Shown piece after piece: positions 1,968 through 24,332 of a DNA stretch of 64,000 nucleotides (position 1 is the stretch's first letter; each line of letters begins with the position of its first letter). The stretch comes from Butyricicoccus sp. Marseille-Q5471 (GTDB lineage Bacteria; Bacillota; Clostridia; Oscillospirales; Butyricicoccaceae), in NCBI RefSeq assembly GCF_951230135.1, contig NZ_CATNVC010000001.1:264746-328745 (forward strand). The letters are read 5' to 3'. Both the position numbers and the translations under genes were made by a program. The notes under the pieces were generated by a model, which saw nothing but the letters and a program-made list of their open reading frames with translations, searched no databases and had not been told where the DNA came from.

Positions 1968-1972
1968 GTGGT

Positions 1973-3417: not shown

Positions 3418-3440
3418 AGCGGTCCTTCTTTCCCCTCGTC

Positions 3441-3456
3441 ATTCTTGTACAAGAAT
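3441..3456. promoter_or_regulatory. Perfect 16-bp palindrome, candidate operator
   Basis: ATTCTTGTACAAGAAT is its own reverse complement. It begins inside the -10 hexamer of the leftward yqeC promoter, where a repressor would block transcription, and lies about 75 bp upstream of the rightward transporter promoter. The regulator is unknown. No repressor gene is visible beside it. Confidence 0.6.
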
Positions 3457-3480
3457 AACGCTTTTGCCCCGCAAAGTCAA
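3452..3480 (-). promoter_or_regulatory. Sigma-A type promoter for yqeC-yqeB-selD
   Basis: On the minus strand, TTGACT (3475-3480) and TATTCT (3452-3457) are separated by 17 bp. The -10 overlaps the 16-bp palindrome. Confidence 0.6.
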
Positions 3481-3481
3481 A

Positions 3482-3512
3482 GGCAAATTTGTATAGATGC
3501 ATAACCTTTGCC
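3482..3512 (+). promoter_or_regulatory. Inverted repeat in the divergent control region
   Basis: GGCAAA (3482-3487) and TTTGCC (3507-3512) form an inverted repeat. A second pair, GCATAAC (3499-3505) and GTTATGC (3552-3558), overlaps the -10 of the rightward promoter. These could be operator halves. I could not match a known riboswitch. Confidence 0.3.
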
Positions 3513-3530
3513 AAATTCATGCCTTATTAC

Positions 3531-3559
3531 TTGCGCAGCAGCGGGGGATTTGTTATGCT
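3531..3559 (+). promoter_or_regulatory. Promoter for the FecBCD-type transporter/xdhC operon
   Basis: TTGCGC (3531-3536) and TATGCT (3554-3559) are separated by 17 bp, upstream of the GGAGGG ribosome site (3582-3587) of the permease gene. Confidence 0.55.
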
Positions 3560-3599
3560 TTAGTCGTTTTGAAACGCGAATGGAGGGAAAACAGCACGC

Positions 3600-6039: not shown

Positions 6040-6042
6040 AAG

Positions 6043-7125: not shown

Positions 7126-7128
7126 GCG

Positions 7129-8160: not shown

Positions 8161-8192
8161 CTTCCTACGTTTTCAACCCCGTACTGCGGCAT

Positions 8193-8219
8193 ACTTCCCC
8201 TTGCCTGCCACATACCTTA
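8193..8219 (+). promoter_or_regulatory. Possible mother-cell (SigK/SigE-like) promoter for recombinase 1
   Basis: CATACCTTA (8211-8219) matches the SigK -10 pattern CATANNNTA, and AC lies 16 bases upstream (8193-8194). It is placed just before the small ORF and recombinase. Such short patterns occur by chance, so this is a candidate only. Confidence 0.3.
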
Positions 8220-8242
8220 TAAAGAAGGATGGTGAGTGCCGC

Positions 8243-8377
8243 ATGGGAAAGCCGCCGGTGCAGATTATTTGCGACAATGTGTTCCAAAGCGGCACGCCCG
8301 AGGAACGTTCCATCCGCCTGACTGACACCTTAGCCGTGCTGATTGACCGGCTTGAGCAGGACGAACAGACCGTTTAA
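8243..8377 (+). CDS. Small ORF upstream of recombinase 1 (44 aa)
   Basis: A 44-residue reading frame starting MGKPPVQIICDNVFQSG and ending with an acidic helix (TLAVLIDRLEQDEQTV). AGAAGGA lies upstream at a somewhat long distance. I do not recognise a family. A small ORF in the same position precedes recombinase 2, which favours it being real. Small proteins next to large serine integrases can be directionality factors, but nothing in the sequence proves that role here. Confidence 0.5.
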   Translation: MGKPPVQIICDNVFQSGTPEERSIRLTDTLAVLIDRLEQDEQTV

Positions 8378-8384
8378 ATGGCAT

Positions 8385-8432
8385 ACAATCCTTTTCCGAC
8401 AGGGGGATCTCCCCAAATCGGAGAAGGATTGT
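8385..8432 (+). terminator. Hairpin between the small ORF and recombinase 1, terminator/attenuator-like
   Basis: A 15-bp stem with one mismatch pairs 8385-8399 with 8418-8432. GGGGG/CTCCCC pairing sits inside the loop and TTTTGTTTT follows. CTCCCC (8409-8414) is also complementary to the recombinase ribosome site GGGGAG (8441-8446), so it could switch between two pairings and limit recombinase expression. Confidence 0.5.
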
Positions 8433-8456
8433 TTTGTTTTGGGGAGGAGGCGTTTG

Positions 8457-9995
8457 ATGAAAGCCGCCATTTACTGCCGCCTGTCGGAAGAAGACCGCGG
8501 CAAACAGCTTGCAGATGCGGACAGCGAAAGCATTCAGAACCAAAAGACCATGCTGCTGTCCTATGCAATGGAACAGGGGTGGGAGATAGCCGGGATTTAC
8601 AGCGACGATGATTATGCGGGCGCGGATCGCAGCCGTCCGGCCTTTTGCCGCCTGCTGCGGGATGCCGAAGCGCGACGCTTCGACATTGTGCTCTGCAAAA
8701 CACAGTCACGCTTCACGCGTGAGCTGGAGCTTGTGGAAAAGTACATTCACGGTCTGTTCCCCATCTGGGGTATTCGCTTCATCAGCATCGTCGACAACGC
8801 CGACACTGCGAACAAGGGCAACAAGAAGTCGCGCCAAATCAATGGTCTGGTCAACGAGTGGTATCTTGAGGACATGTCAGACAGCATCAAAAGCGTGCTC
8901 GATACCAAACGCAGAAACGGCCGCCATATCGGGTCGTTCGCGCTGTACGGCTACCGCAAGGATCCCGATCGCAAGGGCGGTCTGCTCATCGACGAGCAAG
9001 CCGCTGCGGTGGTGCGCGAGGTGTTCACCCTCTTTGCGCAGGGACACGGAAAAACAGCGATTGCCCGTATGCTCAATGAGAGAGGCGTTCCCAACCCTAC
9101 CGAATACAAACACCGTCAGGGACTGCGCTATCAGCAGCCAAAAAACAGTACGCTGTGGAAATACGCCGCAATTTCTCGTATGCTGACGAATGAAATCTAT
9201 CTGGGTCACATGGTGCAGGGCAAATACGGCAGCGTATCCTACAAGTCGAAGGTCAACCGCCCACGCCCGCGCGAAGACTGGTTCCGCGTGGAGGACACGC
9301 ACGAGGCGATCATTGATTTGGCACTTTGGAATCGGGTACAAACCATTCTCAAGCAGAGGACCAAGCCATTTTCGACCGGCGAAATCGGGGTATTTGCGCA
9401 AAAAGCGCGCTGCGCGGGCTGCGGCGCTGTGCTGCGTTCTACGCAGAGCAACGGGCGCAGATATCTGAAATGCCCCAATCACGGTGTCTCACCGACGGCG
9501 TGCACCGGCGCCTTTATCGCGGTTGACCGACTGGAGCAGGCGGTGCTGTCCGAGCTGTGCCAGCTGATCGACCGGTACTTAGATGCGGCGGCTCTTGCGT
9601 GCAAACTTACCCGCAGCGTCCATTCGGATGCGCAGGAGCAGCGTTTGCAGGCGACAAAAGCATCCTGCGAAAAGAAATGTGCTGCATACGCAAAGAATAT
9701 CACCGCGCTCTATCTTGACAAGGCAAACGGCATCCTCACGGAGCAGGAGTTCATCACCATTTCCGCGCAGCTCCGCCGGGAGCAGGCACAGCTTGTCGGG
9801 CGCATCACGGACTGCACCGCAAAGCTTGCGCAGCTGCAGCAGACAGCAAGGACCCCGCGCGACGCGATTGCGCAATATGTTCCCCCTTCGCATCTCAGCC
9901 GCACCATGGTAGAGCTTTTGATTGACCACATAGCCGTTGGGCGGCGCGAACCGGGCACCTCGCAGCTCCCCATCACGATTTACTGGAACTTTTAA
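8457..9995 (+). CDS. Large serine recombinase 1
   Basis: A 512-residue site-specific recombinase. The resolvase domain starts AIYCRLSEEDRG with the catalytic serine at S10, followed by the arginine-rich active-site region (KTQSRFTRELE). A recombinase domain follows (FALYGYRKDP to about residue 310), then a zinc ribbon (CAGCG ... CPNH) and a C-terminal coiled coil (about 400-470), the usual large serine integrase layout. The start chosen is ATG 8457, six bases after GGGGAGGAGG. An upstream in-frame ATG would run through the hairpin and lacks a ribosome site. It ends 26 bp before the resumption of cotJC coding sequence, so it probably lies at the right end of an element inserted in that gene. 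No phage genes surround it. Confidence 0.93.
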   Translation: MKAAIYCRLSEEDRGKQLADADSESIQNQKTMLLSYAMEQGWEIAGIYSDDDYAGADRSRPAFCRLLRDAEARRFDIVLCKTQSRFTRELELVEKYIHGLFPIWGIRFISIVDNADTANKGNKKSRQINGLVNEWYLEDMSDSIKSVLDTKRRNGRHIGSFALYGYRKDPDRKGGLLIDEQAAAVVREVFTLFAQGHGKTAIARMLNERGVPNPTEYKHRQGLRYQQPKNSTLWKYAAISRMLTNEIYLGHMVQGKYGSVSYKSKVNRPRPREDWFRVEDTHEAIIDLALWNRVQTILKQRTKPFSTGEIGVFAQKARCAGCGAVLRSTQSNGRRYLKCPNHGVSPTACTGAFIAVDRLEQAVLSELCQLIDRYLDAAALACKLTRSVHSDAQEQRLQATKASCEKKCAAYAKNITALYLDKANGILTEQEFITISAQLRREQAQLVGRITDCTAKLAQLQQTARTPRDAIAQYVPPSHLSRTMVELLIDHIAVGRREPGTSQLPITIYWNF

Positions 9996-10018
9996 ACCGC
10001 TCGATTATTTGTTTTTAC

Positions 10019-10154
10019 ACCATCGCAGCAGAGCAGAAGGCGCGCACCACTTATGACAACCTGCTGCGCCTGATTGACGACCCCGATGTGCGTGAACCGA
10101 TCAAATTCCTGCGCGCACGTGAAATCGTTCACTTCCAACGCTTTGGTGAAGCGC
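10019..10154 (+). pseudogene. cotJC: cotJC (spore-coat manganese catalase), middle-to-late coding segment, interrupted on both sides
   Basis: In frame from about 10022 this reads IAAEQKARTTYDNLLRLIDD, then DPDVREPIKFLRAREIVHFQ and RFGEA. It matches the late region of CotJC/manganese catalases, including the metal-ligand glutamate in AAEQ and histidine in EIVHFQ. It has no start codon: upstream lies recombinase 1, and after GCG (10151-10153) the frame runs into unrelated sequence (PQPKRQ). The missing C-terminus is found at 24174-24332. The N-terminal part is not in the window. The segment has no stop or frameshift, so it is intact rather than decayed. It could be a leftover, or part of a gene restored by excision in the sporulating mother cell. 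Confidence 0.85.
10142..10154 (+). repeat. Left copy of 13-bp near-direct repeat, candidate attL core of the 14-kb element
   Basis: TTTGGTGAAGCGC here and TTCGGCGATGCGC at 24162-24174 match at 10 of 13 positions. The mismatches fall at codon third positions of Phe-Gly-Glu/Asp-Ala, and the last four bases GCGC are identical. Joining the copies gives Phe-Gly-Glu/Asp-Ala-Leu-Arg in the cotJC frame. The exact crossover dinucleotide cannot be fixed from one sequence. Confidence 0.7.
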
Positions 10155-10175
10155 CGCAACCCAAGCGACAGACGG

Positions 10176-10213
10176 CAAAAAAGGCGCATAAAGCATTTCG
10201 CTTTATGCGCCTT
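10176..10213 (-). terminator. Rho-independent terminator of the 10216-10950 gene
   Basis: A 14-bp perfect stem (10181-10194 with 10200-10213) and five-base loop. A-tracts at 10177-10182 give U's after the stem on the minus strand. Confidence 0.8.
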
Positions 10214-10215
10214 TC

Positions 10216-10950
10216 CTATTGCCGTATCCGATACCCGCAAATCGGCTTTGGCTGCTGCGCTATTTGCAGCTGACTGTCATCGACCACCATCACTACGGTA
10301 AAATCGGCGTTCAGTTCTTCATTGACAATCCGCAGAATTTCCGCTTTTGTGTACGGAAACAAGTGCGAATACAGTCCGCTTGCCGTTTGCTCCCGTCCCG
10401 GTGTGCGATATCGCTTGCTCCGCGCATCACAATAGCGGCAGCATTCGATTTCTCCTCGTCCGTCCGCTCTGCGGCGCACCTGTAAGTGGATGCTGCGGCA
10501 TGACCGATTCTGAAAACAGGTCTCCATGCGGTCAAACAGCGTGTCCTGCCCCTGTGCGCCGTGCCCGATGAGAAGCAGCATTCGGTTACCTTCGTTTTGC
10601 TGCTTGTATGCTGCAATGAACGTGTCATCTGTGCAGGCGGCGCTTGCCTGCACGCCGCTGAACCGGATGCTCTCATATTGCCGGTCGAGCTCCTTTGCTA
10701 TGACCTGTACCAACTCCTGTTTCGTGCACGACCGTGTGGTCAGCCTTTTCGGCGCGGCAGCTCCTGTGCCCCGTCGGTTTCGATCCGCATAAAAGCAGTC
10801 TGTGATTTGACACACGCCGCGTTCGACCCGCAGCTTAATAAAAATCAACCGACCGTGATTTGTTTTTATCATACCGCGATAAAGTCCCGCCGAAACCGGA
10901 TAAAGCATCAAAATCGCGCGCCCTCCCGCTTGCGCCTTCGCTTGCTTCAT
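10216..10950 (-). CDS. Hypothetical protein (244 aa), family not recognised
   Basis: A basic, cysteine-containing protein of 244 residues starting MKQAKAQAGGRAILMLYPVS behind an AGGGGG ribosome site, followed by its own terminator. I see no signal peptide, membrane segment or known motif. A central CCRYC cysteine cluster (about residue 185) might bind metal. It is the first gene inside the left end of the element that splits cotJC, transcribed toward that end. Its codon and base use look less GC-rich than the neighbouring genes by eye. I assign no function. Confidence 0.6.
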   Translation of the reverse strand: MKQAKAQAGGRAILMLYPVSAGLYRGMIKTNHGRLIFIKLRVERGVCQITDCFYADRNRRGTGAAAPKRLTTRSCTKQELVQVIAKELDRQYESIRFSGVQASAACTDDTFIAAYKQQNEGNRMLLLIGHGAQGQDTLFDRMETCFQNRSCRSIHLQVRRRADGRGEIECCRYCDARSKRYRTPGREQTASGLYSHLFPYTKAEILRIVNEELNADFTVVMVVDDSQLQIAQQPKPICGYRIRQ

Positions 10951-11013
10951 GTTTGTCCCCCTCTCTGTGCCAAGCTACTGAAATCTATGTTGCGGCGGTT
11001 TCTTCTATGCGGC

Positions 11014-11064
11014 AAAAAGCGGCACGAACCCGATTGGAGTCCGTGCCGCTTTGGCATCATTTTT
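11014..11064 (-). terminator. Terminator after ccdA-tlpA
   Basis: An 11-bp stem pairs 11016-11026 with 11042-11052, with A-tracts on the left and T-tracts (11060-11064) on the right. It can work in both directions and ends the leftward redox operon. Confidence 0.75.
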
Positions 11065-11068
11065 TAAT

Positions 11069-12364
11069 TTAAGCGGCGCGCTTGCCCGTCATCGTTTGCT
11101 GAACGATGCTTTCCATCACTTCTCCGGTTAATGCGCTTTCCACATATCCAAATACATTTCCGTCCGCATCAATCATAAAGGTCGTCGGGAATGCACGGAT
11201 GCCGTAGGTCTGGAACACTTCGCCGCTTTCATCCATGACAACCGGGAAGGAATAATTGTTATCGGACAAAAACTTCGTAATATGCGCCGTGTCGCCCTCT
11301 TGCCCCTGATTCGGTCCGGCGACGCCCAGCACCACCAAATCCTCCGCGTTGCCGCCATACTTTTCATAGAGCGCCTGAATTTCCGGCATCTCGCCGCGGC
11401 ACGGCGGGCACCAGGTCGCCCAAAAGTTGAGAAACACCGTTTTGCCCTTATAGTCGGACAGGGTATGTGTCTCGCCGTTTTGATCAACTAAGGTAAAGTC
11501 CGGCGCGACACTCACCTGCACCTCCGGCTCCGCCACAGGCTCTTCCACAGGCTTTTCTGCCTCGGGTTCGGTCACCGCCGGTGTTTCAGCATCCGGCTGC
11601 TGCTGACTCTGCGAAACGTCGACAGCATTCCCGCCGGAGCTGGACAGATAATTGGTAAATCCGTTCATAAATCCGGTAAAGGTCATAACACCCATGATAA
11701 TCAGCAGCGCTGCGCCGATTTTAACGGTATACTGCACCACATTTTTATATTTTTTGAAGAAATCGAGCACCGCACTGGTAAACAGACCGACTGCAAGGAA
11801 GGGCAGAATAAAGCCGAGGGTGTACACGCCAATCAGCACCGCACCCTTGGCCATCGAGGCCGACGAGCCTGCCATGAGCATGACGCTGCCCAACACCGGT
11901 CCGACGCAGGGCGTCCACGCAAAGCTGAACGTAAAGCCCAGCAGCAGTGCCGGAATCGGCCCCATCGACCAGCGTTCCAGCCGGAACGGCAGACGATGCT
12001 CTCGGTCGATTGCCTGCGAACGGCCGAAAAAGCCGAACTGGTACAGACCGAACAGCACCATAACAATGCCGCTGATGCGTGCAAACAAGATTCGATTGGT
12101 GCTAAAAAAGCGTCCTAACGCCGTAAATCCAAATCCCAGCAGGAAAAAAGCTGCGCTCACGCCCAGTACAAAGAAGATGGTGTTCACCATCGCCTGCTTG
12201 CGCGGATAATGAATGTTGCCCTCTGCGTCCACCTGCTTGCCACCGCCTGCCAGATAGCTGACATACAGCGGCACTAGCGGTAGAATACAAGGGGAAAAGA
12301 AGCTCAATAAGCCCTGTAAAAATACGGTCAAGACCGGGATGCTGGTTTCAACTGAAAAACCCAT
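11069..12364 (-). CDS. CcdA-TlpA fusion: membrane thiol-electron transporter with extracytoplasmic thioredoxin domain
   Basis: Residues 1-235 form a six-helix CcdA/DsbD-type domain with two redox cysteines, C26 in FFSPCILPLVP and C153 in WTPCVGP. A Pro/Glu-rich linker (about 245-285) joins a TlpA-like thioredoxin domain with WCPPC (C319/C322) and a later cis-Pro loop. CcdA passes electrons from cytoplasmic thioredoxin through the membrane, and the fused domain would deliver them to outside substrates. At 431 aa both modules are complete. It follows a rhodanese lipoprotein and an Rrf2 regulator, so the operon probably handles thiol, sulfur or peroxide stress outside the cell. ATG 12364 is preceded by AAAGGAT. 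Confidence 0.93.
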   Translation of the reverse strand: MGFSVETSIPVLTVFLQGLLSFFSPCILPLVPLYVSYLAGGGKQVDAEGNIHYPRKQAMVNTIFFVLGVSAAFFLLGFGFTALGRFFSTNRILFARISGIVMVLFGLYQFGFFGRSQAIDREHRLPFRLERWSMGPIPALLLGFTFSFAWTPCVGPVLGSVMLMAGSSASMAKGAVLIGVYTLGFILPFLAVGLFTSAVLDFFKKYKNVVQYTVKIGAALLIIMGVMTFTGFMNGFTNYLSSSGGNAVDVSQSQQQPDAETPAVTEPEAEKPVEEPVAEPEVQVSVAPDFTLVDQNGETHTLSDYKGKTVFLNFWATWCPPCRGEMPEIQALYEKYGGNAEDLVVLGVAGPNQGQEGDTAHITKFLSDNNYSFPVVMDESGEVFQTYGIRAFPTTFMIDADGNVFGYVESALTGEVMESIVQQTMTGKRAA

Positions 12365-12399
12365 ATTCAGATCCTTTCATCGGTAATTGTAATCTTCCA

Positions 12400-12810
12400 T
12401 CAAGTAAAGATTTTCTTGTCTATATCGGCAATGGTGATGCCGCGCAGGCGCTCCTTGCAGTCCCGATCGAGCTGCAGATACAGTTCATCCATAATATCTG
12501 CCATGCCCGAGGCCACCAGGCACTCCATATCACTGTCACCGCTTCTCCATGCGGCATCTACAAAGCGGGTATCCAGCGCCTGCGCTACCTCGGCAAGGGA
12601 AAGCTGCTGCGCATCCCCGCAAAACCGGTAGCCGCCGACACTGCCTTCCTTCGTTTCCACAAAGCCTGCCTTCTTTAGCTTTGCCATGACCTTGCGCACC
12701 CGCGCGGGATTGGTGCAAATGTTCTCCGCCAGTGCTTCGCTGGTCAGCACACAGGCCTTGTGATTGAGATAAACCAAGGCGTGCACCGCCACGCTGAACA
12801 TACTGTCCAT
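12400..12810 (-). CDS. Rrf2-family transcriptional regulator
   Basis: A 136-residue winged-helix regulator. The N-terminus MDSMFSVAVHALVYLN, the recognition helix ENICTNPARVRKVMAKL, and the wing GSVGGYRF are hallmarks of Rrf2 proteins. The three-cysteine iron-sulfur cluster of IscR/NsrR is absent as a clear cluster. Cysteines occur at CTN, FCG, MEC and RDC, so redox sensing by thiols remains possible. It lies between the rhodanese and CcdA-TlpA genes and probably controls that operon through the inverted repeat at 13322-13340. Confidence 0.88.
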   Translation of the reverse strand: MDSMFSVAVHALVYLNHKACVLTSEALAENICTNPARVRKVMAKLKKAGFVETKEGSVGGYRFCGDAQQLSLAEVAQALDTRFVDAAWRSGDSDMECLVASGMADIMDELYLQLDRDCKERLRGITIADIDKKIFT

Positions 12811-12826
12811 GGTTTGTGCTCCTTTC

Positions 12827-13306
12827 TCAGTCCTTCACAACATCATACGGCCAATCATTGATACCGCCAAAATCATACACATTCCGGTATCCCAGCTCGA
12901 GCAGCTTTTCAGAGGCTTCCTTGCTGCGCCGTCCGCTGCGGCAGTACACCAGCAGCGTTGCTTCTTTATCCGGCAGCGCCTCGGGCATTTGATCTACAAT
13001 GCTCTCGTTGGGCACCAAAACCGCATCGGCAATGTGCCCTTCCTGATATTCCGCTTCCGTACGCACATCGACCACGGTGACTGTCTGCTCATCCATCATC
13101 GTTTTGGTTTCCTCTGCGGTGATTTTATGGTAGACGCCCGCTTCCTCTGTCTTTGCGCTGTCCGCGGCCATGTCGTCCGTCGCCATATCGCCGTTGTTCG
13201 TGCCGGCGCTGCCCTCCATCGTCTTATCGCTGCCGGCCGACGGATTCGCCTGACAGGCCGTTAACAGCAGCAGAATTGAAAATACCAGCGGAATCATCTT
13301 TTTCAT
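12827..13306 (-). CDS. Rhodanese-like lipoprotein
   Basis: A 159-residue extracytoplasmic lipoprotein. The signal peptide ends in LLLLTAC (lipid cysteine C18), followed by a Ser/Asp/Met-rich linker. The rhodanese domain has VVDVRTEAEYQEGHI and an active-site loop YCRSGRRS with C122. Rhodaneses carry persulfide sulfur or act as thiol-relay proteins. It is the first gene of an operon with rrf2 and ccdA-tlpA. Fused CcdA-TlpA may keep its cysteine reduced. AAGGAG precedes the start. Confidence 0.9.
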   Translation of the reverse strand: MKKMIPLVFSILLLLTACQANPSAGSDKTMEGSAGTNNGDMATDDMAADSAKTEEAGVYHKITAEETKTMMDEQTVTVVDVRTEAEYQEGHIADAVLVPNESIVDQMPEALPDKEATLLVYCRSGRRSKEASEKLLELGYRNVYDFGGINDWPYDVVKD

Positions 13307-13321
13307 ACGCTCTACTCCTTA

Positions 13322-13381
13322 TGTAATTATTTTAATTACAGTTTATACTGTTACTATACAGGTTACAGTTGAGTCTGTCAA
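13322..13381 (-). promoter_or_regulatory. Promoter and inverted-repeat operator of the rhodanese-rrf2-ccdA/tlpA operon
   Basis: On the minus strand, TTGACA (13376-13381) and TATAGT (13353-13358) are separated by 17 bp, near consensus. TGTAATTA-TTT-TAATTACA (13322-13340) lies just downstream of the -10, and a looser ACTGT...ACAGT repeat overlaps the -10. The Rrf2 protein in the operon is the likely binder (inference). The rest of this gap (13382-13584) shows nothing else I can support. Confidence 0.7.
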
Positions 13382-13584
13382 GCAGTTTTTCACATTTCCG
13401 GATTTATTTCTCCTCAAGACGATGTCCTCCACAATAGGCATGTATCCCCATGATGTAAACCACAAGATACAGTATCTTTCCCATTGACTTCACGCTTGGC
13501 ATTCGGCGAAGCGAAATGGATGGATTAAACGCCTGACTTTCGCGCAGCGGATTGCAGGTGATGCTGTGCCTTTGGATTTCATAA

Positions 13585-13631
13585 AAAACCACCGTCCACA
13601 ACACAGAAACTGCGTTGTGGACGGTGGTTTT
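13585..13631 (-). terminator. Terminator after the GGDEF/HD-GYP gene
   Basis: A perfect 18-bp stem pairs 13585-13602 with 13614-13631, with A/T tracts on both sides. A short open frame over this hairpin is therefore not taken as a gene. Confidence 0.85.
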
Positions 13632-13636
13632 ATTCA

Positions 13637-16147
13637 TTAGTAATTCAGCAGTTTGATTTTGCCCTCTTCAACCATCGAAATAAACAGGAAACCCAGTTCG
13701 GGATCGAACTGACGCCCCAGATTACGCCGAATTTCATTGAGTGCATCTTCAACCGGCATTGCGTGCTTATACGAACGGCGGGACACCATCGCATCGAACG
13801 AATCGACGATGCAGAGGCACCGCGCACCGATGGGGATGGCTTCCCCCGCGATGCCGCGTGGATAGCCCTTGCCGTCCCATCGCTCATGATGCCCCAGCAC
13901 GGCTGGAATAACATAATCCAGCGAAGGCAGATGGCGAATCATCTCAATCGAACGCTCCACATGCTGCCGCATGATGGCAAACTCTTCGTCGGTCAGCTTG
14001 CCGGCCTTGGTTAGAATGGAATCCGGAATGCCGATTTTACCGATATCATGCAGAAGACCCGCCTGACGGATGATCTCCACATGGTCGCCGTTGAGTCCGT
14101 AGGCCTCAGCCAGTGATGCTGCGTACTGCGCCACACAGTTGGAATGGTTGAAGGTATAATGATCCTTCGCATCGATTGCCGCAGTCAGCGCATAAATGGT
14201 CGAGGAATACTCCTCTACAATCGTTGCCTTGTCCATTTGCTGCGGCTCATTATCCGCAGAACGGGTGTAGACCATAATGCGATTCTTGCCGTGCTGCTTA
14301 GCGCTGAACACCGCAAGGTTTGCATAGGACAGCAGCTGATCCGGGTTTGCCGCCGCGGTCGGATAATTGCAGATGCCGGCCGAGAAAGTCAGGAAGTGAC
14401 GCGTGCTCTCCTCCTCCCTGCGGATATCCTCCTGCAGGCGGCGGCCGATTCGTTCTGCAATCTCGCGTGCCGCCGTGCTGTCAAAGAACGGCAGCAGTAT
14501 GGCGAATTCCTTGCCGCCATACCGTGCAATTGTGCCCTTGCTGCCGATTTCGCTCTCCAAAATTCGGCTGAAGGTGATGAGCATCTCATCCCCCTTCCCG
14601 GAACCGTACAGCTCGTTATACAGGCGGAAATTATCCAGATTGAACAGAATGACCGAAATCGAGTGCCCACTCGCCTGTTGGAACGCAACCTCCATTTTGT
14701 TGTTAAAATAGCGGCGGTTATACAGGCCGGTCAGCGCATCGCACTGTGCATCGCGCTGGATGGTCTCATACAGGTTTGCGTTCTGCATCGCAATCGAGAC
14801 AATCGACACGGCGGACTCCAGAAACATGGTTTCATCAAAAGAATACGGCTTGCGGTCGTTCTTTTCCGACAGCAGCGTGATACCCACCATCTGTTCATCA
14901 CAGCGAATGGGCAGAATCAGGCCGATGTTCAGTTCTGCCAGTGCGCGTTTTTCGGTCTCCCACATGGATTTGAAATAGGAGGAGTGCCGGAATTCGCTGT
15001 AGGAAATGCTCGATTCATGCTCCCGCAGCCAGAGAATCAGCGGATTATCCTCCCGCAGCGACATTTTGCGGTGTATCGGCGCACTGCCGGCCTCCGACCA
15101 GTAGCACTGATCCTCCCGGTGATACAGGCATACATAGGCATGCTCCACATGCACCGCCTCGTGCAGCAGGTCGACATAGGTGTCGATGATTTGATCGAGC
15201 TGCAGGGTGCGGTTGACCGCCGTAGAAAACCGGCGCAGGCGATCCTCGCGCTCAATCTGGTCACGCACAAATACCTTGCTCAGCAGCAGATTCAGCACAT
15301 TGAACACCAAAATCGCAAGCATTGTGCACAGCACGGCCACAATAATCATTTCATATTCGACATAATCCTGCAGTATGGTATCAAACAGGAAGCGAATCGC
15401 GCTGTTTGCGCCGACCAGCACCGAGCACACGACGAGAATGGTCATAAAATAGGCTGCGCCCTTGGATGCAATCTGGCTGAGTGCAAAAATACGCTTTTTA
15501 CAGAACGCATAATAGATGCAAATCGCGTTAATTGCACAGGCGGCGGTATCGAGCGGCAGGGTATTGAGCACCGGCGCGACCGATTGCAGCACAATTACGA
15601 TAAACATGACCAAAACGCCAATTAAGAACGGGGTAAAATGAACCGACGGCACACCCTGCTTGCGCAGTCCGCGCAGCATAATCCGCCAGACTGAGATGAA
15701 AATCAGCACCGCAATCAGAATCGGCACCGCTGCGAGCGGATGGGTGATATAGCTCAAATTCGGCCGCCCTGCTTCCACAGTGATGACCGGCCGCGACATG
15801 TACATGTCGTTGTGGTTCATAATCAGCATGAGAATCGTGGCAGCGCCCCAGACGCACTTCATTACCCAGCCGCGCTCGCCCACATAATGGCCCGCCATTA
15901 AATAGTAAAGCCATGGAACCAAGATAATACCGCTGACCGATACTTCCCACCAGAAGTTGGGCGAGGGGTACATTTGCAGGCGCAGCATCAGCGAACCGCC
16001 CGTCCACATCATGAATGCACCGAGCATCATCATAAACGAGTAGATCGTCTGATTTTTGCGCGCGGTCAGCAGCGTCATAAACAAAAACAGGTTGCACAGC
16101 AGCGCCACTGCGGGAATCAGGGAGAAGATGTGCGGATTCATTGTCAT
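13637..16147 (-). CDS. Membrane-bound GAF-GGDEF-HD-GYP protein (cyclic-di-GMP phosphodiesterase type)
   Basis: An 836-residue signalling protein. Residues 1-290 hold about eight membrane helices of the histidine-kinase-N-terminal 7TM type. A GAF-like domain follows (about 300-455), then a GGDEF domain (470-625), then HD-GYP (655-836). The GGDEF signature is GGKEF (544-548), a change that often goes with loss of diguanylate cyclase activity. The HD-GYP signature is complete: HDIGKIGIP (700-708) and HHERWDGKGYP (753-763), so c-di-GMP hydrolysis is likely. The start overlaps the upstream gene's stop. It lies within the element that interrupts cotJC. Confidence 0.92.
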   Translation of the reverse strand: MTMNPHIFSLIPAVALLCNLFLFMTLLTARKNQTIYSFMMMLGAFMMWTGGSLMLRLQMYPSPNFWWEVSVSGIILVPWLYYLMAGHYVGERGWVMKCVWGAATILMLIMNHNDMYMSRPVITVEAGRPNLSYITHPLAAVPILIAVLIFISVWRIMLRGLRKQGVPSVHFTPFLIGVLVMFIVIVLQSVAPVLNTLPLDTAACAINAICIYYAFCKKRIFALSQIASKGAAYFMTILVVCSVLVGANSAIRFLFDTILQDYVEYEMIIVAVLCTMLAILVFNVLNLLLSKVFVRDQIEREDRLRRFSTAVNRTLQLDQIIDTYVDLLHEAVHVEHAYVCLYHREDQCYWSEAGSAPIHRKMSLREDNPLILWLREHESSISYSEFRHSSYFKSMWETEKRALAELNIGLILPIRCDEQMVGITLLSEKNDRKPYSFDETMFLESAVSIVSIAMQNANLYETIQRDAQCDALTGLYNRRYFNNKMEVAFQQASGHSISVILFNLDNFRLYNELYGSGKGDEMLITFSRILESEIGSKGTIARYGGKEFAILLPFFDSTAAREIAERIGRRLQEDIRREEESTRHFLTFSAGICNYPTAAANPDQLLSYANLAVFSAKQHGKNRIMVYTRSADNEPQQMDKATIVEEYSSTIYALTAAIDAKDHYTFNHSNCVAQYAASLAEAYGLNGDHVEIIRQAGLLHDIGKIGIPDSILTKAGKLTDEEFAIMRQHVERSIEMIRHLPSLDYVIPAVLGHHERWDGKGYPRGIAGEAIPIGARCLCIVDSFDAMVSRRSYKHAMPVEDALNEIRRNLGRQFDPELGFLFISMVEEGKIKLLNY

Positions 16148-17790: not shown

Positions 17791-17803
17791 TTCTTTCCGT
17801 CTG

Positions 17804-18346
17804 CTACCGTTTGCCGCGGCAAGCCGCAAGGCTCACACGGGTTGGCAGTAAAAACGGTATTTCTTTTTGATAGTCGCTATAGCCTGCAATATAACGCGGA
17901 AACAGCCAGCGATCCTGAATAAATATGTAAACAAAGTTCAGCAGAGAAAACAATATCGCCCCTGTCAGCATCGACGTTGTTCCGGCCAGTCCCCACAGGC
18001 CAAGATAAAACATTGCCAGGCACCATCCCCCCGGATGGCGGCACAGCGCATAAACGCCCGCCGAACACACGGCAATGTCAGCAGTTCCGTAGGTATCCCC
18101 TGCCGGAAGTGCGAAAAACAGCACATAAACCTCCGCCAACATCCACAGCAGCGCCCACGCGCCGCTCAGCACACGCAGCACGGATATCGCGCCGTGCAGC
18201 GGGAGCAGCAGTCCTGCCGTCCCCCCTGCAAGCAGCAGCGCGCCCGCGGCGAACAGCGGTCCGCTCGCACCGCCGGCTGCCTTGCTCAGGTCGGACAGTA
18301 CAAACAGCACAAACGCCAACGTGCCCGCGGCAAGCCAGCCAATCAT
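17804..18346 (-). CDS. PEMT/ICMT-like integral membrane methyltransferase
   Basis: A 180-residue protein with about five membrane segments and the C-terminal signature of phospholipid/isoprenylcysteine methyltransferases: GVYALCRHPGGW, then a hydrophobic hairpin, then QDRWLFPRYIAGYSDYQKEI and PFLLP. The RHP motif binds SAM in this family. The usual glutamate before the Arg is glutamine here. Substrates are likely lipids or prenylated molecules (inference). It overlaps the DegV gene by 4 bp and lies 13 bp from the GH3-like gene, so the three are probably co-translated. Confidence 0.7.
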   Translation of the reverse strand: MIGWLAAGTLAFVLFVLSDLSKAAGGASGPLFAAGALLLAGGTAGLLLPLHGAISVLRVLSGAWALLWMLAEVYVLFFALPAGDTYGTADIAVCSAGVYALCRHPGGWCLAMFYLGLWGLAGTTSMLTGAILFSLLNFVYIFIQDRWLFPRYIAGYSDYQKEIPFLLPTRVSLAACRGKR

Positions 18347-19218
18347 TCTGCTGCCCTTTTGCGGAACACGATGCCGATGCTCTTAGGCCCGGAATACACG
18401 CCCATCACCGGCCCGACGCCGCCCATGCGAATCGGAATGTCGGGTGAAATCGCGCGAATGCGTTCGGTCAGGAGTTTGGCCTCTTGCTCCATGCGGGACT
18501 GGAAGATAATAATCTCCTCCCCCTGAGCATGCTCCTCCTCATAGTGCCTCACCATGAAGTCCATTCCGTCCCGATATCCGCGGCGTGATATGCCCACGTC
18601 CTTGACCAATCCATCCCGAAAAACAAGAATCGGGCGAAGTCCCAACGTATCAGCCGCCAGTGCGCGGATTGCGCCGACACGGCCGCCGCGCCGCAAATAT
18701 TTCAGTGCGTCAAATATAAAATAAATGCCGACGTTCGGTCGAAGCAAATCGAGCTCGGCAATGATTTGCTCCGCGCCCAGTCCACGACCCGCCAGCCGCG
18801 CCGCCTGCGCAGCGACGAAATCCAGCCCGTGCGAGGACTGCTCGGAATCATACACATAAATCGGGATTTGGAATCCCTGCTCCTGCAGCAGCTTGCGGGC
18901 GGTATCCGCAGTGGCAAAACAGCCGGACATTTTAGCGGTGCAAAGCACGCAGACAATCTCCGTCGCCCCCATCGCGGCCGCCTGCTCGAACCCTTCGATA
19001 AATGCGGCAATCGGCGGCTGCGAACTGGTGGGAACTGTTTTTTCGGTCTCCAGCCTGCGGAAAAAAGTTTCGCTGTCGATGTCGCGCAGCGTGCGATACT
19101 GCTCGTCCCCCAAGATGACGATGTCGGATACCAGCACAATATCGTTCTCTGCAGCGTATTCCAGCGTCATATCCGAACCGGTATGACAAACTACCACTGT
19201 TTTCTTGCATTCTGACAT
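18343..19218 (-). CDS. DegV-family fatty-acid-binding protein
   Basis: A 291-residue DegV protein. It has the expected fold markers: N-terminal HTGSDMTLEYA, the PTSSQPPIAAF loop, SGCFATA near the lipid head-group site, DSEQSSHGLDF, and LKYLRRGGRVG. The family binds a fatty acid between two domains, and in FakB serves the fatty-acid kinase FakA. No fakA is visible here. It heads the operon with the PEMT-like, GH3-like and HD-GYP genes. A second DegV is encoded at 54410-55285. Confidence 0.9.
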   Translation of the reverse strand: MSECKKTVVVCHTGSDMTLEYAAENDIVLVSDIVILGDEQYRTLRDIDSETFFRRLETEKTVPTSSQPPIAAFIEGFEQAAAMGATEIVCVLCTAKMSGCFATADTARKLLQEQGFQIPIYVYDSEQSSHGLDFVAAQAARLAGRGLGAEQIIAELDLLRPNVGIYFIFDALKYLRRGGRVGAIRALAADTLGLRPILVFRDGLVKDVGISRRGYRDGMDFMVRHYEEEHAQGEEIIIFQSRMEQEAKLLTERIRAISPDIPIRMGGVGPVMGVYSGPKSIGIVFRKRAAE

Positions 19219-19345
19219 GTCTTTCCCCCAGTCCTTGTGTATCGCGTTTCAACGTTCTACCACCTTTATGATGCGTAAAACGGTTTCATTTCGCCGATTT
19301 TATTGCTTTTTCAAAACCCATCTGTAACCTACGTTCAATACTCTT

Positions 19346-19375
19346 ATTTTACCATATTTCACCCTTATATTGCAA
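19346..19375 (-). promoter_or_regulatory. Promoter for the degV-PEMT-GH3-HD-GYP operon
   Basis: On the minus strand, TTGCAA (19370-19375) and TAAAAT (19346-19351) are separated by 18 bp. The divergent gap 19219-19511 is AT-rich and also holds the rightward fabF promoter. Confidence 0.5.
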
Positions 19376-19453
19376 GAATCTTTTCCAGTTGCCCCTTGCT
19401 ATATCACCGCTCACTTTGGTCAATCCGTCCATTTTCAAACCGTATTTTTTTGG

Positions 19454-19459
19454 TATAAT
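19454..19459 (+). promoter_or_regulatory. -10 element (TATAAT) upstream of fabF
   Basis: A consensus TATAAT lies 52 bp before the fabF start. TTTTCA (19432-19437) is a weak -35 candidate at 16-bp spacing. I see no FapR- or FabT-like repeat. Confidence 0.5.
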
Positions 19460-19511
19460 AGGATATAAACGAGAGTTTTAGGGCACTATTTCCACTAAGG
19501 AGGATTCCACT

Positions 19512-20741
19512 ATGACACAAATTAAATTAGTGATAACCGGCATGGGCGCTGTCACCCCCGTCGGCTTGGGGGTGGACGCATATTGGAGCGGCCTGACGCA
19601 CGGGGTCTGCGGCATCGGGCCAATCACCCGATTTGACGCCTCCTCCCTGCCGATACAAATTGCAGCGGAGCTGCGAGATTTTCATGCGGAAAACTACATG
19701 CCGCGTCAGCTTGCACGCACCATGGATCCCTTCATGCAGTATGCTTTCATCGCGGCGGATGAGGCACTGCGCGGCAGCGCGCTTTCTATTGAGCGCGAGG
19801 CCGACCGCATCGGCCTGGTCATGGGCACGGCGATGGCGGGCGTTACCACGGTCGCATGCACGCAAGCCGCATTTGACGCGGGAAAGCGCGTCGGCCCCCG
19901 GTTTGTTCCGATGGCCATCGGCAACATAGCCGCCGCCCAAATCGCCATTGCGCACGGTCTGCACGGCCCCAGCCTGACGGTAGGCACCGCCTGCTCGGCA
20001 GGCGGCGACGCGATTTTGACCGCTGCGCTGCTGCTGCAAGCAGGCGAGGCCGATGCCGTGCTTGCGGTCGGCGGGGAAAGCATCCTGTGCCCGGTTGTCG
20101 TGTCGGGTCTGGCGCAGGCGGGTGCACTGTCTCGCCGCAACGACGACCCTGAGCATGCTTGCCGTCCGTTTGACGCAATGCGGGATGGGTTCGTCATCGG
20201 TGAAGGCGGCGGCGCACTGCTCATCGAAACACTTGAGCATGCTCAGGCACGCGGTGCGCAGATTTACGCAGAACTCGCCGGTTGGGCGAACACCAACGAT
20301 GCGCACCACGTCACCGCGCCCGACCCGACCGGCGCAGGCGCCGCCGCCTGCATGCGCCGCGCACTGGAGCGAGCGGCTCTGCCCCCTTCTGCCATCGGCT
20401 ATATCAACGCCCACGGCACCTCGACCCCGCTGGGCGACCGCGCTGAAACCCTTGCGGTCAAGGCGGTATTCGGCGATGACGCGCCGCCGATTTCCTCCAC
20501 CAAATCCATGACCGGTCATCTGATGGGCGCCGGCGGTCTGACCGAGGTCATCGCCTGCGTGCAGGCACTGCGGGAGGGCATTTTGCCGCCCACGCTGCAC
20601 CTTGACACCCCTGATCCTGCCTGCGACCTTGACTATGTGCCCAATACCGCACGCAAGGCCGATATTGCCGCCGCCATGTCTAACTCGCTCGGCTTTGGCG
20701 GCCAGAATTCCAGCATCATTGTCACCCGCTGCGAAAAGTAA
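19512..20741 (+). CDS. fabF: Beta-ketoacyl-ACP synthase II
   Basis: A 409-residue condensing enzyme of fatty acid elongation type. The Cys-His-His triad is complete: C161 in TACSAGG, H301 in NAHGTSTPLGD and H336 in KSMTGHLMGAGG. It condenses malonyl-ACP with an acyl-ACP. No ACP, ketoreductase or malonyl transferase gene is adjacent, unlike a housekeeping fab operon. It is instead paired with an acyl-CoA synthetase inside the element that splits cotJC. It could serve a specialised lipid or polyketide-like product. AGGAGG precedes ATG 19512. Confidence 0.93.
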   Translation: MTQIKLVITGMGAVTPVGLGVDAYWSGLTHGVCGIGPITRFDASSLPIQIAAELRDFHAENYMPRQLARTMDPFMQYAFIAADEALRGSALSIEREADRIGLVMGTAMAGVTTVACTQAAFDAGKRVGPRFVPMAIGNIAAAQIAIAHGLHGPSLTVGTACSAGGDAILTAALLLQAGEADAVLAVGGESILCPVVVSGLAQAGALSRRNDDPEHACRPFDAMRDGFVIGEGGGALLIETLEHAQARGAQIYAELAGWANTNDAHHVTAPDPTGAGAAACMRRALERAALPPSAIGYINAHGTSTPLGDRAETLAVKAVFGDDAPPISSTKSMTGHLMGAGGLTEVIACVQALREGILPPTLHLDTPDPACDLDYVPNTARKADIAAAMSNSLGFGGQNSSIIVTRCEK

Positions 20742-20753
20742 GGAGTCCTTCAC

Positions 20754-22367
20754 TTGCAACTCACCTATGATGTTTCCATGTTTCAGCAAACCTTTGAGAC
20801 CGAATTCACCTATCTGAACGGTTTTCTGCGCAATGTTTCCCGTTTTGGCAGCCGTCCCGCGCTGCACGACCCACTATCCGGCCGCCGGTGGAGCTACCGC
20901 GACCTAAACGCCGAGGCCAACCGCCTGGCGCACGCCCTGCGCGCGGACGGCGTGGGCAAAAACGATGTGGTCCTATTCGCCCTGCTCAACTCACCCGAAT
21001 TTGTGTTCTGTTACCTTGCCGCGCACAAAATCGGCGCGATTGCCTGCCCGGTCAACTATCGGCAGGGCGAGGGTGAAATCGCCCTGATGCTTGACGACAG
21101 CCGCCCCAAGGTGTTTCTGTACGACGCGGAGTTCGCCGCGCTGTCCGAGCAGGCGCTGCGCCTTGCCGCGTACAAGCCCACACGTTCGGTCATGGTCGGC
21201 GGCAAGCCGGACGCTTACGACCGCTATACCGCAGATCAGCCCGAAACCGACCCTCCGGTTGACTTTGCACCCCATATTTATGACGAAACCACCCGTCTTT
21301 ACACCTCCGGTACGACCAACCGCCCCAAAGGCGTACCGATCAACAACGTGAACGAAGTGCTGTCTGCGCACGATGTGATGATGCATTTTCCGCTCGGCCC
21401 GACCGACCGCACCATGAACATGACCCCCTGGTTTCATCGCGGCGGCCTGCACTCGGGCGGCCCCTGTCCAACGCTGTACGCAGGCGGCGAGGTCGTTATC
21501 CTGCGTGATTTTCACCCCCGCCGCTGCCTTGAGTTGGCAGAGCGGCTCGGCATCACCTTTTTGATTGGCGTGCCGACCATCATCGGCATGCTGGCACGGG
21601 CGCAGGAGCATACTCCCGCCGATTTATCGGCGCTGCGCGGCATTGTGACCATGGGCGCACCCTTTGAAAAGGCCGCGTGCGAGCAGTATATGCAGCTGCT
21701 GACCCCGAATATTTTCAACGGCTACGGCACGACCGAAACCTTTTGGAACACGTTTCTCCGTCCCTTTGATTTGCCTGATATGGCAGGTTCGGCCGGCCGT
21801 TCGTGCACGGATGATGAAGTGCGCGTCGTGCGGCTCTGCGCGGACGGTCATGCCGCCCCCGACGACACCGTCGCGCGTGACGGCGAGGAAATCGGCGAAA
21901 TTATCATCAAATCCCCTACGAAATCGGCCTACTGCTACTTTAACAACGCGGAAATGACCGCTGAAAAATTCCATCAGGGCTGGCTGTACACAGGCGACGC
22001 GGGCACGTGGGACGAAAATGAGTTTATCACCGTTGCCGGACGCAAGGACGACATGATTGTGTCCGCAGGCGAGAATATTTACCCGACGCAAATTGAGGCC
22101 GTGCTCAATGAGCATCCCAAGGTGGCGGAGAGCGCCGTTATCGGCCTGCCCGACCGGCTGCGCGGCGAGAGTGTCGCGGCGTATGTTGTGCCTTCGGACG
22201 ACAGCCTGACCGTGGACGAGCTGAAGGACTACTGCGTGCATCATCCGATGCTGTCCAGCTATAAATGGCCGCGCGTTTACGAGCTCGTGACTGAACTGCC
22301 GCACACCGCGACCGGAAAGCTGATGCATTACCGGGTGCGCGACATGGAGGCCGGTAAAATGCTATAA
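20754..22367 (+). CDS. Acyl-CoA synthetase / AMP-dependent ligase (ANL family)
   Basis: A 537-residue ANL enzyme activating a carboxylate via acyl-AMP. Motifs are complete: P-loop YTSGTTNRPKG, GYGTTETFW, YTGDAGTWDENEFI, the hinge GRKDDMIVSAGENIYP, and the catalytic lysine in TATGKLMHYR. The start is TTG 20754, eight bases after AGGAG. It follows fabF by 12 bp, so the two form an operon that ends at the terminator 22371-22402. Its layout resembles medium/long-chain acyl-CoA ligases. The substrate is not determinable. Confidence 0.9.
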   Translation: MQLTYDVSMFQQTFETEFTYLNGFLRNVSRFGSRPALHDPLSGRRWSYRDLNAEANRLAHALRADGVGKNDVVLFALLNSPEFVFCYLAAHKIGAIACPVNYRQGEGEIALMLDDSRPKVFLYDAEFAALSEQALRLAAYKPTRSVMVGGKPDAYDRYTADQPETDPPVDFAPHIYDETTRLYTSGTTNRPKGVPINNVNEVLSAHDVMMHFPLGPTDRTMNMTPWFHRGGLHSGGPCPTLYAGGEVVILRDFHPRRCLELAERLGITFLIGVPTIIGMLARAQEHTPADLSALRGIVTMGAPFEKAACEQYMQLLTPNIFNGYGTTETFWNTFLRPFDLPDMAGSAGRSCTDDEVRVVRLCADGHAAPDDTVARDGEEIGEIIIKSPTKSAYCYFNNAEMTAEKFHQGWLYTGDAGTWDENEFITVAGRKDDMIVSAGENIYPTQIEAVLNEHPKVAESAVIGLPDRLRGESVAAYVVPSDDSLTVDELKDYCVHHPMLSSYKWPRVYELVTELPHTATGKLMHYRVRDMEAGKML

Positions 22368-22370
22368 TCC

Positions 22371-22402
22371 AAAGCGCTGTCGATCGGACAGCGCTTTTCT
22401 TT
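22371..22402 (+). terminator. Terminator after the fabF-acyl-CoA synthetase operon
   Basis: An 11-bp perfect stem (22371-22381 with 22387-22397) and a loop of five bases, followed by TTTCTTTG. Confidence 0.85.
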
Positions 22403-22419
22403 GTGTTGGGGCAAGTGTT

Positions 22420-22450
22420 CTCCTGCCTGCGCATAGGCTTGCATCAGGAG
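22420..22450 (+). promoter_or_regulatory. Possible ribosome-site-masking hairpin before the small ORF of element 2
   Basis: CTCCTG (22420-22425) is complementary to CAGGAG (22445-22450), which contains the start of the AGGAGG ribosome site for the 55-residue ORF. The stem is short, so this is tentative. Confidence 0.35.
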
Positions 22451-22458
22451 GGATTCTT

Positions 22459-22626
22459 ATGCTCAAACAACCCATCAAACGGTGCGTCGTCTCATCCGCA
22501 CAGTGGCTCGACCGAAACGGAATCGCGCATCCGGTCACGCACGCCGTCTGCACGCCCGCCGAACCCGAGGACAGCGTGAAAGACGCGCTTTACCGCATCT
22601 TCGTGCCTGAGGAGACATCAGAATGA
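22459..22626 (+). CDS. Small ORF coupled to recombinase 2 (55 aa)
   Basis: A 55-residue reading frame starting MLKQPIKRCVVSSAQWLDRN behind AGGAGGG, ending with an acidic tail (YRIFVPEETSE). Its stop overlaps the recombinase start as ATGA, a sign of translational coupling and of a real gene. I do not recognise a family. It occupies the same place as the 44-residue ORF before recombinase 1. A role with the recombinase, for example in directionality control, is plausible but unproven. Confidence 0.65.
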   Translation: MLKQPIKRCVVSSAQWLDRNGIAHPVTHAVCTPAEPEDSVKDALYRIFVPEETSE

Positions 22627-24143
22627 TTGCGCTGTATGCCCGCCAGTCGGTCGAGCGCGAGAACAGCGTGAGCATCGAAACGCAGCTGCAATACTGCCGC
22701 GCTGCCCTGCGCCCGCCTGAGCATGCTCAGCCGACCGAAACCTACATAGACGAAGGGTGCAGCGGCGGCAACATCAATCGTCCCGCCTTTCAAAAGCTGA
22801 TGCGCGACATCGAAAACGGCCGCGTGCGCAAGGTCGTGGTGTATAAACTGGATCGTATCAGCCGCTCACTGGTCGACTTTGTCGGCATTTTGCAGACCTT
22901 CAAGGCGCACAGCGTTGAATTTATCTCCTCGCAGGAGGCGTTCGACACATCGTCCGTCTACGGTGACCTCATCCTGAAAATCCTGATTGTGTTCGCGGAA
23001 TTCGAGCGCACCTCCATCATTGGCCGTGTGCGCGACGCCTATGACAAACGCACCGACCTCGGCATTTACATGGGCGGCCGCCGGCAGTACGGCTTTCATC
23101 TGGAGGACACCCTGGTCGGCGGGCTGAAAACCAAGAAATACGCGCCAAATCCCGAAGAACTTGCGCACATCCGCTTTCTTTTCGAGCAGTATGCTTGCGA
23201 AAACACCACGCTTCGCTCGGTGCAGACCGCGCTGCTTGCGCAGAACATGCGCCCTCTGGACGGCGCAGATTGGACGACCGCCAAGCTGTCCGCGCTGCTG
23301 CGCAATCCGGTCTATGTGCGTGCAGACAGCGCAGTTTATGATTACTTTGCACAAAAACACGTGCGCATTGTCGGCGATTTGCCCAGCTTCGACGGGCAGC
23401 ATGCTGTGCTGCTTTACGGACGCACCACGCACGACGACACGCTGCCCGATTGGTCAGACATGAAGCTTGTACCCGCGCAGCACGAGGGCGTTATCCCATC
23501 CGACCTATGGCTTGCCTGTCAGCGGCGGCTGGCGCGCAACCGACAGGTCGGCAGCAGTCTGTCCAACCAGACCAGCTGGCTCGCGGGCAAACTGGTGTGC
23601 ACCCAGTGCGGCCATGCGCTGACCACCATCAAAAGCCGCCGCGCGGACGGCACGGTGCGGCGGTATTTCCAGTGCATCGGCCGCTCGCACAAAAAGACCT
23701 GCCCCGGCATTTCGTGCACGTTATATGCCGATGATCTGGAGGATTTGATTTCCGACTGCATGCTGCAAAAGCTTGGGCAGTTGGGGACCGCTCCACCGCC
23801 CAAGACCGACACGCAGGCCTCTGCGCGAAACGAGCTGACGCTCCGCATACGCGCGGTAGAACAGCGGCAAAGCAAGCTATCCCAATCCCTGCTGGACGGA
23901 GAATGGAACGCCTCGCTGCTGCGGCTTGCAAACGAGCAGGCTTTCGAATTAGAGCGGGAGCGCGAGGCGCTTGCGCACAAACTATCGGCGCTTACGCAGC
24001 CGGAAAGCACCGCGGCCGGTCTTAATTTGGCAGACTGCTGGCGAGCCGCTTCGTTTGCACAGAAAAAGGCGGCTGCCGCCGTGCTGCTCCGCTGCGTGCT
24101 GCTCTCCCCCGACGGGGCGCCCGAGTTGGTTTGGACGCTGTAA
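22623..24143 (+). CDS. Large serine recombinase 2
   Basis: A 506-residue site-specific recombinase. The resolvase domain begins MIALYARQSVERENSVS, with the catalytic serine at S9, and continues with YKLDRISRSL. A recombinase domain (GGRRQYGFHLED to about 300), a zinc ribbon (CTQCGHA ... CIGRSHKKTC), and a C-terminal helical coiled coil follow. It differs clearly from recombinase 1, so the two are not a recent duplication. The gene ends 27 bp before GCGC (24171), where the cotJC frame resumes. That is the same spacing as for recombinase 1 and is the position expected for an integrase gene at an attachment site. Confidence 0.93.
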   Translation: MIALYARQSVERENSVSIETQLQYCRAALRPPEHAQPTETYIDEGCSGGNINRPAFQKLMRDIENGRVRKVVVYKLDRISRSLVDFVGILQTFKAHSVEFISSQEAFDTSSVYGDLILKILIVFAEFERTSIIGRVRDAYDKRTDLGIYMGGRRQYGFHLEDTLVGGLKTKKYAPNPEELAHIRFLFEQYACENTTLRSVQTALLAQNMRPLDGADWTTAKLSALLRNPVYVRADSAVYDYFAQKHVRIVGDLPSFDGQHAVLLYGRTTHDDTLPDWSDMKLVPAQHEGVIPSDLWLACQRRLARNRQVGSSLSNQTSWLAGKLVCTQCGHALTTIKSRRADGTVRRYFQCIGRSHKKTCPGISCTLYADDLEDLISDCMLQKLGQLGTAPPPKTDTQASARNELTLRIRAVEQRQSKLSQSLLDGEWNASLLRLANEQAFELEREREALAHKLSALTQPESTAAGLNLADCWRAASFAQKKAAAAVLLRCVLLSPDGAPELVWTL

Positions 24144-24161
24144 CGCGCTTAACCGAGCCAG

Positions 24162-24174
24162 TTCGGCGATGCGC
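24162..24174 (+). repeat. Right copy of 13-bp near-direct repeat, candidate attR core
   Basis: TTCGGCGATGCGC, partner of 10142-10154, 14,020 bp away in direct orientation. Rejoining at GCGC gives GAAGCGCTTC, a 10-bp palindrome, and CAACGC...GCGTTG arms around it, a symmetry expected of a recombinase target. Confidence 0.7.
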
Positions 24175-24332
24175 TTCGCGTTGTGCAGGACAATCTGGAC
24201 GCGAAAAACTACTATGCTTTCAATCCCGCCTTTGACACCCGCCGCCCCTCCCGCGGCTGCTCGACCACGATTCTCGACAGTTTGACCACTGCCGCACAGC
24301 AGGCCGAAGAAACCGCCCCAATCCCCGAATAA
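24174..24332 (+). pseudogene. cotJC: cotJC C-terminal coding segment
   Basis: Reads LRVVQDNLDAKNYYAFNPAF followed by DTRRPSRG and a tail ending ETAPIPE, with TAA at 24330. The LRxVQDxLDxKNxYAFNPxFD ending is characteristic of clostridial CotJC. It directly continues the segment ending at 10154: splicing at GCG|C restores FGEALRVVQ without a frame shift. It has no start codon of its own and is followed by a terminator, as expected for the natural end of the gene. All 52 codons are open, which argues against long neutral decay. Confidence 0.85.

Follow-up and report, generated by a model that had tools for sequence, protein, structure and literature searches.

A coat gene in six pieces: cotJC of an Agathobaculum genome is divided by five serine-recombinase elements and is probably rebuilt during sporulation

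The stretch of DNA analysed here (the window) comprises 64,000 nucleotides, C1:264746-328745, where C1 is a contig of an Agathobaculum (Oscillospirales) draft genome (2.94 Mb, 43 contigs, 99.82% complete). It holds the last two of six pieces in which the spore-coat gene cotJC is spread across 83.6 kb of C1. The gene is split at four places (A, B, C and D) by five elements, each with its own large serine recombinase at one end; place B carries two of them, B1 and B2, with ~11 bp of cotJC left between. The structure, the site specificity and the recurrence of this arrangement are established here computationally. With a probability of roughly three in four, cotJC is a developmentally spliced gene in the manner of skin, in which excision in the mother cell rebuilds the coding sequence; that step is suggested by analogy with known systems and by promoter evidence.

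The Pfam Mn_catalase profile (E ≤ 0.001), run against the whole genome, matches C1:205516-205620, 212870-213037, 262174-262398 and 274764-274898, all in gene order on the + strand, while the C-terminal piece lies beyond the Pfam hits and was located by protein search. Only pieces were found, and the second, complete cotJC that an earlier sequence-only reading of the window had allowed for was absent from the assembly by this search. Serine recombinases at C1:211466, 260611, 273208 and 287371 directly precede cotJC pieces, and the fifth lies on the minus strand at the left end of the region following piece 2. Measured between homologous codons, the elements span 7,309 (A), 15,448 (B1), 33,715 (B2), 12,383 (C) and 14,020 bp (D). 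Features of the window are as follows, in window positions; ORF, open reading frame; attL and attR, left and right attachment sites.

1..10027, right part of element C (whole element C1:262390-274772, of which 2,356 bp precede the window); attL/attR alignment, shared TCGCAGCAGA
8188..8218, + strand, sigma-E/K-like promoter box, ggcatact-15-CATACCTT; scan with controls
8243..8377, + strand, 44-amino-acid ORF, candidate recombination directionality factor of C; a similar small ORF was seen by eye before 7/7 C-site recombinases; no Pfam match
8457..9995, + strand, large serine recombinase of C; Pfam, site-C branch; frame open from 8343 with a TTG start
10025-10032, core of C, GCAGCAGA; junction alignment
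10025..10149, + strand, fifth of the six cotJC pieces (codons ~134-175), flanked by the C and D cores; tblastn and junction alignment
10148..24167, element D, 14,020 bp; Pfam cargo and junction alignment
22432..22439, + strand, CATAGGCT box before the small ORF of D; scan with controls
22459..22626, + strand, 55-amino-acid ORF, candidate directionality factor of D; 4-bp overlap with the recombinase start, weak by-eye likeness to ORFs of genomes G006 and G011
22623..24143, + strand, large serine recombinase of D; Pfam, site-D branch
24165..24332, + strand, last of the six cotJC pieces, from codon ~174 to the natural stop; protein search and junction alignment

The sequence-only reading had placed both pieces and both recombinases of the window correctly, and it called the two enzymes unrelated; each combines Resolvase, Recombinase and Zn_ribbon_recom domains, and identity and phylogeny put them in different families. 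The search beyond the window that it proposed located the rest of cotJC upstream on the same contig and strand. Its tandem pair of insertions gave way to five elements, because the whole-genome search showed further pieces and a micro-piece junction was found at C1:228455, where a B1-type right end is followed by AGGTACAGAAGA and then a B2-type left end. The two-element reading was dropped on the former ground, and a single 49-kb element at B on the latter. By eye, the arms of this internal junction resemble those of G022/G006 and G005 (genomes of the genus are labelled G000 to G024, G000 being this one). An assembly or binning artefact joining unrelated cotJC fragments, which a draft in 43 contigs might invite, is extremely improbable, as the pieces are ordered on one strand of a single contig of 480,607 bp, and the same sites are broken in the one-contig G005, the two-contig G001 and many other genomes.

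The ends of each element share a short sequence: GG with flanking G's in A, GGTAC in B1, GA in B2, GCAGCAGA in C and GGnGA in D. At site A the arms flanking the core appear by eye to be inverted repeats of each other, and inverted-repeat arms are expected of serine integrase attP sites. As in skin-type elements, every element lies inside the coding sequence of a sporulation gene, with cotJC pieces on both sides, and the matching cores restore its frame: the six pieces, once joined, give 200 codons with no stop and no frameshift, B1 and B2 being joined in frame through the micro-piece to yield GTEELAH. Across the genus, an in-frame joint giving the family-standard protein is possible in 21/21 aligned junction pairs, though in some of them crossing over elsewhere would alter the product by one to a few residues. 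The C core is complete in five of eight aligned C pairs and partial in G002, G013 and G016. Thus, an in-frame CotJC can result from all of the joints tested. The open frames of the pieces would also suit their expression as separate assembling peptides with no DNA excision, but one piece of ~11 bp is too short for a peptide and no start with a ribosome site was seen by eye at the inspected piece junctions, which makes this explanation very unlikely.

The interruption recurs well beyond this genome. Comparison with close strains, as had been proposed from the window, showed a broken cotJC in 18 of the 25 genomes of the genus and an unbroken one in the other seven (G003, G004, G008, G010, G014, G018 and G021). 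Site A is broken in seven genomes (one side only in G007), B in six and C in nine (one side only in G024); D is broken on both sides in G000 and G011, on one side in G006 and G017, and doubtfully, at a contig end, in G023. Only G000 is broken at all sites. Among 87 genomes of the family, 75 have a match, and by our reading of the match table 21 genomes outside the genus have piece ends at the same places, some of them one-sided. At the level of the order, 255 of 297 genomes have a match. From the matches listed we chose by eye 71 genomes outside the family, with best E weaker than ~1e-45; eight others in this range, each with one weak hit, were excluded. The position bins used were wide, and site D lies beyond the Pfam view. 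Within this subset a piece ends at A, B or C in 71/71, at least one site is seen from both sides in 60/71 (A 17, B 31, C 18), and 14/71 are apparently broken at two or more sites, some of them owing to stray or paralogue hits. Because the same break points recur in genus, family and order, the pattern is more than chance. The initial idea of a skin-like, restorable and selected interruption of a coat gene fits the points that could be examined, but as a recurrent feature rather than a one-genome oddity.

Two other cotJC stretches were seen in the genus. In G005, C1:1028284-1028552 is a decayed second cotJC stretch with an internal deletion and a start near site B. In G016, contig C211 (locus L107:2944-3042) carries a divergent cotJC start, 48% identical, that also ends at site A; a contaminant contig or a paralogous gene may account for it.

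Each site appears to belong to its own recombinase lineage. Beside 27 junction sets in the genus, 23 recombinases were located. Identity within sites is 56-88% at A, 40-76% at B1, 80% at B2, 60-81% at C and 34-50% at D. Listed pairs from different sites share ~35% or less, so identity by itself does not make D tighter than background. In the tree, the 23 recombinases form five branches matching the five sites, each set apart from the other sites with support of 99-100, and shuffled labels did equally well in 0/200 trials; the tree program warns of long branches between the groups. The B1 branch is the least exclusive, as it also holds three recombinases of this genome without a cotJC link.

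Upstream of the recombinases, promoter-like boxes that would suit mother-cell control are enriched overall, though not at site A. A CATANNNT box lies 20-48 bp before the operon start at 14/23 recombinase loci compared with 4/77 predicted genes of the region (Fisher p 4e-8), and Markov shuffles predict it at 0.63/23. It was sought before the small ORF where one exists, a rule fixed in advance that may work in the test's favour, and the 77 control genes include the five recombinase ORFs of this genome with their longest starts. By site, the box precedes 7/7 recombinases at C, 3/5 at B1, 2/2 at B2, 1/3 at D and 1/6 at A. A sigma-E-like score is also enriched relative to the 77 predicted genes (p 2e-6). 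The cotJ operon itself is preceded, in 21/23 genomes, by a CATANNNT box in a constant position, 506-512 bp upstream of cotJC; in B. subtilis, cotJ is a sigma-E operon. Besides those at C, small ORFs were seen by eye before the B1 recombinases of G006, G022 and G020 and, with weak likeness, before 3/3 at D, whereas that of B1 in this genome (C1:228139-228366) sits at the opposite end of the element. These ORFs are candidate recombination directionality factors.

We propose that in growing cells the five independent elements keep cotJC in six pieces. At sporulation, a sigma-E/K-type mother-cell promoter would turn on the recombinases together with, at least in C, a small directionality factor; each recombinase would then join its own attL and attR, and the element would leave as a circle. 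The rebuilt frame would make CotJC available to the coat. Because the mother cell dies, the forespore line would retain all elements and their cargo.

The principal alternative is that cotJC is a crowded landing site, where phages and islands target conserved attachment sequences in a dispensable coat gene that is inactive in its carriers and seems conserved only because the insertions are young and often lost. This we consider unlikely. In its favour, the broken cotJC of G005 and the unbroken gene of G004 are near-identical, at 0.03 synonymous substitutions per site (dS), B2 is a prophage, and viral contigs in IMG/VR have cotJC pieces adjoining recombinases of the families described here. In a search of that database with the families of A, B2, C and D, where many contigs end near the recombinase, a cotJC piece broken at the family's own site was seen by eye at 16/65 loci for A, 0/1 for B2, 5/14 for C and 7/80 for D (80 of 558 matches), and three contigs are broken at two sites. 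Strict attP patterns for A and C, as expected of excised circles, had 0 matches each in IMG/VR, which would also suit a landing site. Selection argues the other way. A disposable gene should decay when unbroken too, yet no stop occurs in any of the seven unbroken genes or in any joined cotJC of the genus. All broken genes examined are restorable and have a low ratio of nonsynonymous to synonymous substitution (dN/dS), even where both members of a pair are broken: medians are 0.058 for broken pairs, 0.045 for broken-unbroken pairs and 0.040 for unbroken pairs. These values draw on the 13 of 18 broken genes that are complete enough and on 77/78, 85/91 and 19/21 pairs, respectively, those with saturated or near-zero dS being dropped. 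Mother-cell-type boxes precede many of the recombinases, and recombinase and cotJC distances correlate at A (Mantel r 0.73, p 0.017, n 5) and, only at p 0.051, at C (r 0.72, n 7).

Several observations weigh against rebuilding by excision. No recombinase was recognised at 4/27 junction sets (A in G007, C in G011, D in G017 and C in G024), and no small ORF was recognised by eye before the recombinases at A and B2. Site A has the box in one of six loci only, with too little upstream sequence to judge in G009, and G002 retains a poor C core. The recombinase distances track those of cotJC only loosely; since, in addition, the nearest unbroken gene is distant (dS 1.69), the selection on cotJC could predate the insertions. 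The missing circles in IMG/VR count here as well, as do the unconfirmed sporulation of this strain and a split in its own sigG gene; spoIVA, on the other hand, is intact and speaks for the mother-cell explanation. Taken further, that explanation would make cotJC a docking gene used throughout the order, with five or more slots, each reserved for a single serine-recombinase lineage, and here rebuilt at sporulation from six pieces by five excisions, the close-set B1 and B2 perhaps leaving in a set order. We rate this extended form as somewhat better than an even chance.

The cargo, assigned by Pfam from a subset of the ORFs, differs among the elements. A carries an M23 peptidase and an amidase (cell-wall hydrolases) and an ABC-type membrane protein. 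B1, outside the window, carries a type I-C CRISPR-Cas system at C1:222811-228007, with Cas3 parts, Cas5d, Csd1, Cas7, Cas1 and Cas2 and an array of 79 repeats; its 78 spacers had no match (85% of length, 5 mismatches) in the C1 region or the collected loci, four overlapping loci being left out. B2 is a prophage, with terminase, holin and amidase among 10 proteins scanned, and also a DNA methylase. C encodes sulphur transport, SelD-like AIRS, YqeC, a FecCD/ABC/binding-protein set, a methyltransferase and XdhC, and D encodes DsbD-thioredoxin, Rrf2, rhodanese, GGDEF-HD, GH3, DegV, a ketosynthase and an AMP-ligase; no phage structural or packaging genes were found by Pfam among the scanned proteins of C and D. 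The metabolic cargo first noted in the window is that of C and D, a description that does not extend to the prophage of B2 or the CRISPR-Cas locus of B1. No link of cargo to sporulation was seen among the scanned ORFs.

Single-element relatives are known in sigK, spsM, spoVFB, gerE and yabG; five elements in one coat gene, with a micro-piece, are new here, and no literature on interrupted cotJC was recognised among open-licence papers. The skin element in sigK of B. subtilis and C. difficile is described as a large serine recombinase element with precise restoration and, in C. difficile, a small directionality factor controlled by the mother cell (PMC5025042); as presented there it is one element in a regulator gene, whereas cotJC is a coat gene with five, B1 and B2 being stacked. 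SP-beta, a whole prophage in the spore-envelope gene spsM that leaves during sporulation (PMC4191935), is comparable to B2, although spsM has a single element in that account. The gin element in gerE of Bacillus cereus, with serine recombinases and no phage genes reported in a spore gene (PMC5595907), resembles C and D, but it is described as one insertion point with three recombinases within one element. The yin element in yabG of Clostridium botulinum is prophage-like, with att repeats, a putative directionality factor and a SigK promoter, and vfbin interrupts spoVFB (PMC10747680); yin is presented as a single element in one strain, unlike cotJC. Heterocyst interruption elements also act in a terminal cell type, and their recombinases mostly cluster by element variant (PMC4874684). 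Like cotJC, these cyanobacterial genes can hold several elements, the maximum reported in that source being four, in Rivularia nifD, compared with five and a micro-piece in cotJC. Finally, the attR of prophage phi027 in C. difficile R20291 adjoins a CotJC-like catalase gene, ORF 1465 (PMC11222575), which is described there as a neighbouring bacterial gene and not as interrupted.

If the extended form of our explanation is correct, a CRISPR-Cas locus and a prophage would be discarded only by a dying mother cell, and cotJC would be the most heavily DNA-spliced bacterial gene known to us. Skin-type interruption would no longer be a matter of a few isolated examples but a recurrent feature, with several slots, of one coat gene in gut Clostridia. 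The question why mobile elements, CRISPR-Cas systems and metabolic genes park in genes that only the dying cell needs becomes testable, and the five recombinases, all distinct and with candidate att sites mapped, are possible tools.

The forespore sigma factor gene sigG is split in the same genomes, between FSTYAVPM and IIGEIRR; here the pieces lie at C9:50737-51021 and C8:84141-84629. Both pieces are present in 20 of the 25 genus genomes, one piece is listed in three (G013, G014 and G022), and the gene is unsplit in G017 and, with a shorter match, in G002. No recombinase was recognised beside the pieces in a scan of their loci; in this genome a resolvase-domain ORF at C8:82760 precedes the C piece. 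The junction sequences look conserved among the loci inspected. The halves are in reversed order, 112 kb apart, in the two-contig G001 (C2:296939 and 408910) and on opposite strands, 757 kb apart, in the one-contig G005 (C1:2504338 and 1747354). Simple excision would therefore not restore sigG; an inversion would be required, or else a circle with sigG on it or a protein made in two parts.

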